Source: Bacteroidota bacterium
Lineage (GTDB): Bacteria; Bacteroidota; Ignavibacteria; UBA10030
DNA: 56,712 nucleotides
Assembly (NCBI GenBank): GCA_021813905.1
Contig: JAKAJH010000014.1
Span: 1 to 56,712 of the forward strand
Reading direction: 5' to 3'
The notes under the pieces are model-generated. The model did not search any database. It had not been told where the DNA came from and saw nothing but the letters and a program-made list of their open reading frames with translations. The position numbers and the translations under genes were made by a program. This document shows, piece by piece, positions 34,786 through 35,197 of the stretch; position 1 is the stretch's first letter, and each line of letters begins with the position of its first letter.

Positions 34786-34857
34786 GCGGGCGTAATTCAG
34801 TGGTAGAATGCCAGCTTCCCAAGCTGGACGTCGCCGGTTCGAGCCCGGTCGCCCGCT
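34786..34857 (+). tRNA. tRNA-Gly (anticodon CCC)
   Basis: A full cloverleaf can be folded. The acceptor is GCGGGCG pairing with CGCCCGC, with discriminator T. The D loop is AATTCAGTGGTAGAAT, the anticodon stem is CCAGC/GCTGG with loop TTCCCAA giving anticodon CCC, and the T arm contains GGTTCGAGCCC. The CCA end is not encoded. It is a single gene with its own promoter and a Rho-independent terminator directly after it. Its 3' half is duplicated 181 bp downstream. Confidence 0.95.
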
Positions 34858-34981
34858 CTGAATAGCCGATCTGAAAAGGTCGGCTATTGTTGTTTTCCGC
34901 TTCCCAAGTCCGTCCCGACGAAAGAGATGGAGCAGATATTTGGTCGGGACGGGATCCTCGATTCGGCAGCCGCTCCGACGA
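34824..34981 (+). repeat. Tandem duplication, copy 1 (tRNA 3' half, terminator, hairpin)
   Basis: This copy runs from the anticodon 3' stem of tRNA-Gly, through the terminator, to a region with a 10-base inverted repeat (CCGTCCCGAC at 34910-34919 and GTCGGGACGG at 34943-34952). It also contains the sequence GGGATCCTCGATTCGGCAGC, which recurs in copy 2. A further inverted pair, CGATTCGGC at 34959 and GCCGAATCG at 34993, spans the junction to copy 2 and is unique to this copy. Confidence 0.75.
34861..34896 (+). terminator. Rho-independent terminator of tRNA-Gly
   Basis: AATAGCCGA and TCGGCTATT form a perfect 9-base stem with a 10-base loop, followed by GTTGTTTT. It starts three bases after the tRNA ends. 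Confidence 0.75.
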
Positions 34982-35004
34982 TGTCGTCGCGGGCCGAATC
35001 GGGA

Positions 35005-35163
35005 CTGGACGTCGCCGGTTCGAGCCCGGTCGCCCGCTCTGAATAGCCGATCCCAAGAGGTCGGCTATTTTTGTCTTCAGCTTCCCACGTCGCGTCCCGA
35101 CGAAAGAGATGGGGCAGACGTCCTGGTCAGGACGGGATCCTCGATTCGGCAGCCGCTCCGACG
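35005..35163 (+). repeat. Tandem duplication, copy 2 (truncated tRNA-Gly 3' half)
   Basis: Starts 181 bp after copy 1. The first 48 bases, covering the tRNA-Gly 3' half (35005-35040) and the start of the terminator, are identical to copy 1. The rest is diverged but colinear to about 35163. No 5' half of a tRNA is present, so it cannot make a working tRNA. The inverted repeat seen in copy 1 is kept with one stem mismatch (35093-35101 with 35126-35134). With copy 1 it fills the 340-bp gene-free stretch 34858-35197. Confidence 0.75.
35042..35077 (+). terminator. Duplicated Rho-independent terminator
   Basis: Same 9-base stem AATAGCCGA/TCGGCTATT as the first terminator. The loop has changed, and a better T-rich tail (TTTGTCTT) follows. 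It also faces the end of the convergent phosphatase gene. Confidence 0.65.
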
Positions 35164-35197
35164 AAGCGTATTGCCGGTGTCACCTGAATCCCGACGT

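Follow-up and report, generated by a model that had tools for sequence, protein, structure and literature searches.

tRNA genes are classic landing sites, and the well-known elements found there use integrases and one att repeat. Insertion of IS200/IS605 elements is not known to cause target duplication. The tyrT repeats of E. coli (rtT RNA) are ∼178-bp tandem repeats beginning with the tRNA 3′ end, and we know of no palindromic insert in the anticodon arm there. The very small mobile repeats of cyanobacteria, associated with work by Elhai in 2008, are reportedly tiny, precisely inserted and marked by compensatory changes. Among described hairpin elements, IS200/IS605 has hairpin ends and a short target flanking its left end (PMC6006769); mitochondrial double-hairpin (repetitive hairpin-forming) elements form tandem hairpins and insert in genes and intergenic DNA (PMC2800124); and the available part of PMC3733652 treats REPs inside ORFs, not tRNA copies. 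Palindromes splitting tRNA copies were not described in the titles and abstract openings that searches of an open-access library listed, only some of these searches being aimed at tRNA copies; as a sign of absence this is weak. Here we describe geneless palindromes of ∼50–100 bp. Throughout a bacterial order they occur where tRNA genes or kinase 5′ ends have been partly copied, and they show a preferred orientation relative to the intact gene.

The starting point was a tRNA-Gly(CCC) locus in a stretch of 56,712 nucleotides (the window), where we distinguish the following features:

34786..34858, + strand: intact tRNA-Gly(CCC) (ARAGORN; Rfam tRNA, 65.3 bits)
34861..34896, + strand: first copy of the tRNA gene's intrinsic-terminator-like hairpin, ending in a T-rich tail (inverted repeat; sequence)
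34899..34908, + strand: GCTTCCCAAG, corresponding to tRNA-Gly nt 29–38, remnant of a second tRNA copy that abuts the insert on the left (clean-split scan; sequence)
34909..35004, − strand: 96-bp double-hairpin element TCC..GGATCC..GGA, in reverse orientation relative to the tRNA (clean-split insert; DNA fold z −3.5 with short flanks)
34953..35004, − strand: hp1 arm, the portion covered by model R1 (66.5 bits, full length; itself an R1 training sequence)
35005..35039, + strand: nt 39–73 of the split tRNA-Gly copy, identical to 34824–34858 (repeat comparison)
35042..35075, + strand: terminator hairpin and T-run, second copy (direct repeat)
35078..35089, + strand: CAGCTTCCCACG, second anticodon-arm remnant, an 11/12 match to tRNA nt 27–38 (sequence)
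35090..35164, − strand: second element copy, truncated inside hp1 (direct repeats; absent from the R1 match list)

The original prediction had described a direct repeat of 181-bp period that starts inside the anticodon stem of the tRNA, and this is what we found: the repeat sets in with nt 39 of the tRNA, on the 3′ side of the anticodon stem, and its first 48 bases are identical, as claimed (34824–34871 and 35005–35052, 181 bp apart). Beyond these bases the copies are ∼90% alike up to 35164; the whole repeat aligns in three pieces of 92%, 96% and 98% identity as the spacing moves from 181 to 182 and 183. Both copies retain the terminator stem and differ in its loop, the predicted stem length of 9 bases being a fair minimum (12-nt arms at 92%), and the 41-nt piece further downstream does show a single change. 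The enclosed segment, said to code for nothing, comprises the tRNA terminator and the hairpin element, with no gene of its own and no integrase or island. Overlooked, in turn, were the half-way stop of the second inverted-repeat copy at 35164 and the anticodon-arm piece (34899–34908; again 35078–35089), by which the structure is a split tRNA copy and not a 3′ half alone.

When folded as single-stranded DNA, the insert with short flanks (34897–35016) scored better than 199 of 200 shuffles (z −3.5); the insert itself (34909–35004) folds into two hairpins, hp1 and hp2, starts with TCC and ends with GGA. As read from the sequence, a second tRNA-Gly copy is present, split in the anticodon arm by a 96-bp insert that joins the tRNA piece precisely; a tandem duplication of the unit followed. 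tRNA-Gly(CCC) itself looks intact, and the repeat unit shows no evident gene function. In a relative of the same genus (G001, 55% complete), the 600 bp on either side of tRNA-Gly(CCC) are free of tRNA fragments; the structure seen in the window is therefore either lineage-specific or was lost in that genome.

Similar structures recurred in a search set of 61 genomes among relatives, own included, from which stretches were taken at matching loci. Split copies follow tRNA-Gly(CCC) in G004 (tandem units, period 139) and, by eye, in G021, and tRNA-Gly(TCC) in G003, where nt 21–39 are retained before the insert with one mismatch. In G015, a second tRNA-Val retains most of its parts in their proper order and is interrupted by inserts at three points, and tRNA-Pro shows two successive clean inserts. 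Likewise, pieces of tRNA-Leu, Thr, Asn, Arg(tct), His, Arg(cct) and Met adjoin their genes in the own genome, mostly with palindromic DNA at the break (by eye).

To put numbers on this, the 600-bp flanks of tRNA genes were scanned for same-strand tRNA fragments. These lay beside 11 of 41 tRNAs in the own genome (G000), the one genome in which all detected tRNAs were scanned; the other sets, made up of best-scoring loci or loci picked from a list, gave 9/34 in G004, 14/32 in G015, 4/11 in G006 (same family) and 0/5 in G036 (same order). Antisense and reversed hits numbered zero in G000, G004 and G015. A class set yielded 2/24 with two antisense hits and other phylum members 3/96, while in a random control of 119 contigs, which are loci from an over-loose degenerate DNA pattern search (at least 119 stretches), a fragment lay beside 1 of 14 tRNAs. 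Around tRNA-Gly matches in the family and order, 15 of 51 had fragments, a few of these loci having been chosen for partial matches. The surviving matching tracts were mostly < 40 nt. We then defined a clean split as two consecutive tRNA pieces around an insert without loss, accepting an overlap of 0–3 nt only. This gave 32 hits (G000, 3; G004, 15; G015, 10; Gly set, 4), in which tandem copies are counted repeatedly and of which 25 have overlap 0. Distinct clean splits number 23, with overlap 0 in 17, and eight of those 17 inserts start with TCC and end with GGA. Clean splits were zero in the G006, class, phylum and random sets as well as in the antisense and reversed controls.

Several individual loci deserve description in their own right. 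On C16 of the own genome (L170), an exact 60-nt copy of the 3′ part stands behind tRNA-Leu(TAG); there is also a third 3′ part, which has diverged, and a palindrome lies between. In G040 (C8, L026), five copies of tRNA-Val nt 1–16 (one of them 2–16) stand at 59-bp spacing upstream of tRNA-Val with short palindromes between them. In G021 (C46, L029), the 3′ half of the split copy resembles the tRNA-Gly of other species and the functional tRNA has diverged, a pattern for which transfer or an old copy are possible explanations. The single hit of the random set (L155; Patescibacteria UBA7435, DLQJ01000005.1) is a tRNA-Val with an upstream partial copy of nt 1–24 and hairpins (by eye); being far outside the order, it may be a separate occurrence of what is seen here.

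The inserts share a conserved, covarying hairpin. Fourteen of them, from tRNA and kinase loci and one intergenic locus, align over 61 columns in which 98.0% of cells pair; compensatory changes occur in 13 of 18 pairs, and covariation reaches 0.50 versus 0.147 in shuffled and ≤ 0.085 in slid alignments, figures to be read with the fact that these inserts were picked by eye as palindromes, a selection that favours pairing. The covariance model built from them, R1, describes hp1. At E 0.01 it matched 38 of the 61 genomes, with 0 to 17 matches per genome (own included), and at E 0.001 six of 247 phylum genomes, own included and all in this order; both counts come from filtered searches, in which weak matches are lost. 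The own genome has two R1 matches, the window element and one at tRNA-Arg(tct) on C32. A set of 71 loci gave 87 R1 matches, 83 of them distinct. Here pairing holds in 98.8% of base-pair cells, and compensatory changes are seen at 15 of 18 pairs; the 83-sequence covariation score is 0.551, against 0.171 shuffled and ≤ 0.112 slid, in an alignment that was fitted to R1 and hence leans towards the model structure. Further pair types in this set were no more frequent than in shuffles (277/500). A second hairpin follows hp1 in 57 of 73 copies, so that most copies carry two adjacent hairpins, as double-hairpin elements do.

The window element is a member of a hairpin family found here only in this bacterial order. 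The family consists of palindromic repeats that are probably mobile, and differs from known kinds by its association with tRNA and kinase gene copies and by its polarity. The predicted ‘very small tRNA-targeting element’ came close to this: what we see is a 96-bp hairpin element of a recurrent family in a tRNA copy, with versions of variable size in relatives at the same and at other tRNAs. The proposed search for covariation in the stems turned out positive for the element's own hairpin; the terminator stem is identical in both window copies and hence uninformative. For hp2, a pattern search in the own genome returned two places, both at tRNAs; a wider hp2 family was considered there and rejected, the weak BLAST matches at C45, C74, C71 and C49 looking like chance.

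Placement of the elements was assessed at 71 loci, namely the best match of 30 genomes, the next 40 matches by score (three training loci that were already included being skipped) and the own C32 locus. A tRNA lies within 600 bp at 33 of the 71, and at 28 of 63 when the eight training loci are left out; at ∼1.6% per locus (42 tRNAs in 3.4 Mb), about one of the 63 would be expected. Of the 38 non-tRNA loci, 17 have a kinase N-terminal motif within 400 bp, always on the element's strand (two of the 17, L343 and L346, are training loci). Nine more are at contig ends, three (L345, L366 and L405) have tRNA-like pieces and one (L404) kinase pieces by eye, and eight are without recognizable context. 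The association with tRNAs and kinase 5′ ends is strong. At the kinase loci, a 5′ gene fragment is followed by the element, a short leader and the intact kinase gene; in G013 three kinase fragments stand in succession. At L332, L421 and others (G013, G012, G029 and G031), an intact kinase gene is preceded by 5′-end fragments of Ser/Thr kinase genes that terminate in hairpin elements; some of these loci have several such fragments in succession. By eye, the kinase fragments have diverged from the adjacent intact gene.

The elements are also oriented. Each R1 match within 600 bp of a tRNA was assigned to the tRNA with an abutting fragment or else to the nearest one, giving 40 distinct elements. 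Upstream elements lie on the tRNA strand in 20 of 20 cases and downstream elements on the opposite strand in 17 of 20, i.e. 37 of 40 in total; counting each untrained locus once gives 16/16 upstream, 9/12 downstream and 25/28 overall. Where the abutting fragment is at least 9 nt long, 29 of 30 elements fit, and the TCC end joins the fragment without shift. Thus, with few exceptions (L369, L388 and L399, all downstream), the hp1/TCC end lies against the outer gene fragment and the hp2 end points towards the intact gene. Split copies could derive from an earlier tRNA duplicate, so the case for a coupling of insertion and duplication rests on this polarity; we think it likely that the two are linked, mainly because random insertion into old duplicates would not yield it.

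At the target side, the TCC end is immediately preceded by a G in 39 and by a C in 22 of the 73 copies. Raw counts further out (A/T at −2 in 66, A/T at −3 in 62, C at −4 in 43) describe a degenerate, CWWS-like flank, many of the 73 flanks stemming from related tRNA or kinase sequences. Hairpin loops were also considered as the target, because a fragment scan, hand-sorted and with some mis-parsed tRNA labels, had placed 90 of 126 breakpoints in loops or junctions. In the R1 set, 14 cuts fall in loops or junctions and 12 in stems (expected stem share, 0.39); loop targeting thus failed there, and we prefer the sequence motif.

A candidate for the moving enzyme is encoded in the window, 31 kb away from the element:

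3358..3945, + strand: REP-associated tyrosine (Y1/HUH) transposase-like gene, candidate mover (PF01797, E 9e-9; NCBIfam NF047646, 67.9 bits, below the cut-off of 80)

Across the 61 genomes, the number of elements correlates with that of Y1 genes (rho 0.54, P 6e-6; partial correlation 0.45 after genome size and family), with phylogeny accounted for at family level only; within the family alone the value is 0.60, and in the rest of the order the correlation is weak (rho 0.31, P 0.10). Two loci in G012 have a Y1 gene immediately after a kinase 5′ fragment, separated from it by hairpins and with R1 elements nearby; these loci were chosen, like those in G029, for closeness of R1 and Y1. The own genome has three Y1 genes, and the 1.5 kb around each is free of R1 matches. 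Among 40 Y1 loci (from the best 41 matches), a tRNA within ∼800 bp was found at none, which argues that the transposase genes do not generally share the element's niche, and kinase motifs were found at two; because of these counts we regard a Y1 transposase as a candidate mover, a lead rather than a result.

How does the family relate to the systems outlined above? With REP/REPIN sequences and their RAYT (TnpA-REP) it shares short imperfect palindromes, covarying stems (the 13/18 and 15/18 pairs) and the presence of Y1/HUH genes in the same genomes. Unlike REPs, its left flanks (last 8 nt) contain GTAG in 5 and CGTC in 1 of 73, so that the tag is missing from most left flanks; moreover, the R1 family is low-copy and sits, with polarity, at partial tRNA and kinase gene copies. 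The ends moved by TnpA of IS200/IS605 are likewise hairpins; their short left-end target may have a counterpart in the degenerate CWWS-like flank, and the clean splits resemble such insertions (17 of 23 distinct ones at overlap 0, in a scan that took 0–3 nt only), whereas the 96-bp element is geneless and none of the 40 Y1 loci from the best 41 matches lies at a tRNA. Mitochondrial double-hairpin elements also have tandem hairpins; they differ in being mitochondrial, and the part of PMC2800124 available describes no association with tRNA copies and no polarity for them. The tyrT repeats have a similar length and also start from a tRNA 3′ end, but tRNA was the sole Rfam family to score above its gathering threshold here. 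The cyanobacterial repeats are reportedly alike in tiny size, precise insertion and compensatory changes.

We consider it probable that the window holds a degenerate tRNA-Gly(CCC) copy, interrupted behind nt 38 by a palindromic double-hairpin element of 96 bp, that the unit of 3′ half, terminator, anticodon piece and element was duplicated in tandem, the second unit remaining incomplete, and that the element is a non-autonomous mobile one, perhaps moved by a Y1/HUH enzyme, whose insertion is linked to a partial copy of the target. Under this model, the element would enter as single-stranded DNA beside a short target resembling CWWS, with a Y1/HUH transposase related to those of REP/IS200 systems as the mover; insertion would be coupled to, or survive only with, partial re-copying of the target, such that one intact gene remains, and tandem amplification would then multiply the units. 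A more specific version, which we put forward only tentatively, is a gene-sparing hairpin element with one end joined precisely to a gene (tRNA or kinase) and the other linked to the re-copied intact gene, insertion and target restoration being one event. The orientation rule would then be the trace left by a one-ended, single-strand transposition that is finished through recopying. The window repeat itself is debris of a recurrent process, a double-hairpin element in a spare partial gene copy with the intact copy mostly on the hp2 side. If insertion and target copying are linked, the family would show how geneless repeats hit essential genes without killing the host, and REP-like palindrome movement, an old question, would become testable in a family with unusually clear footprints.

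The debris could instead reflect survivorship. Full tandem tRNA duplicates would arise often and collapse by homologous recombination, and dispersed palindromes inserted at random into spare copies, with no coupling, would leave homologous tracts too short for such a collapse, so that the remains persist. Nearly complete split copies such as those in G015 (tRNA-Val with three insert places, tRNA-Pro with two clean inserts) fit this, as does the shortness of the surviving tracts. Random insertion does not, however, predict the orientation seen at 25 of 28 untrained loci, and the divergence of the kinase fragments from the adjacent intact gene, judged by eye, speaks against it too; we rate this account as somewhat unlikely. 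Slippage at hairpins, with the palindromes incidental to a neutral tandem duplication, would explain the amplification seen in the window, in the Gly and Val units of G004 and in the His and Met arrays. It does not account for a palindrome that lies exactly at the fragment boundary, is homologous across tRNA types and genomes and covaries, nor for one element family recurring at unrelated genes. The original prediction had reserved a simple neutral duplication for the case that relatives lack variable-size insertions and stem covariation; relatives do show such insertions at tRNA-Gly and the element hairpin does covary, and slippage now appears very improbable.

Selection for a functional structured RNA, e.g. 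a processing signal or sRNA within tRNA transcripts as in the E. coli tyrT repeats, has the strong covariation and the placement beside transcribed genes in its favour. Yet the orientation flips with the side of the tRNA, the element also precedes kinase genes, copy number ranges from 0 to 17 across genomes, the tRNA-Gly(CCC) flanks of the 55% complete G001 are free of fragments, and only tRNA reached the gathering score in the Rfam search, all of which makes this reading improbable. Its predicted form, a structured RNA unit that uses the terminator, finds no support in G003, G004 and G021 either, in which no T-run hairpin was seen by eye between tRNA end and element. An attachment-site scar left by an integrase-type island would agree with an identity that begins inside the tRNA and extends past its 3′ end. 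The enclosed segment is nevertheless terminator plus hairpin element, arrays of the same unit occur, and 5′ fragments are also found upstream of tRNAs and kinase genes. The suggested scar of an excised island has thus become extremely improbable, the repeat boundary being the edge of a hairpin element whose family also occurs in or by other tRNA copies and kinase 5′ ends.

Two minor observations concern the surroundings of tRNA-Gly genes. An ORF antisense to the tRNA region of the window (34712–35056, − strand), whose translation contains ..GLEPATSSLGSWHSTTELRPH.., is presumably of the spurious ‘protein’ type commonly annotated across tRNA genes. Downstream of tRNA-Gly in several relatives (L010, L012, L020, L025 and L048), visual inspection showed a further palindrome that recurs, its arms resembling GTTAGCG../..GCTAAC; it is perhaps the tRNA-Gly terminator or a second repeat family.
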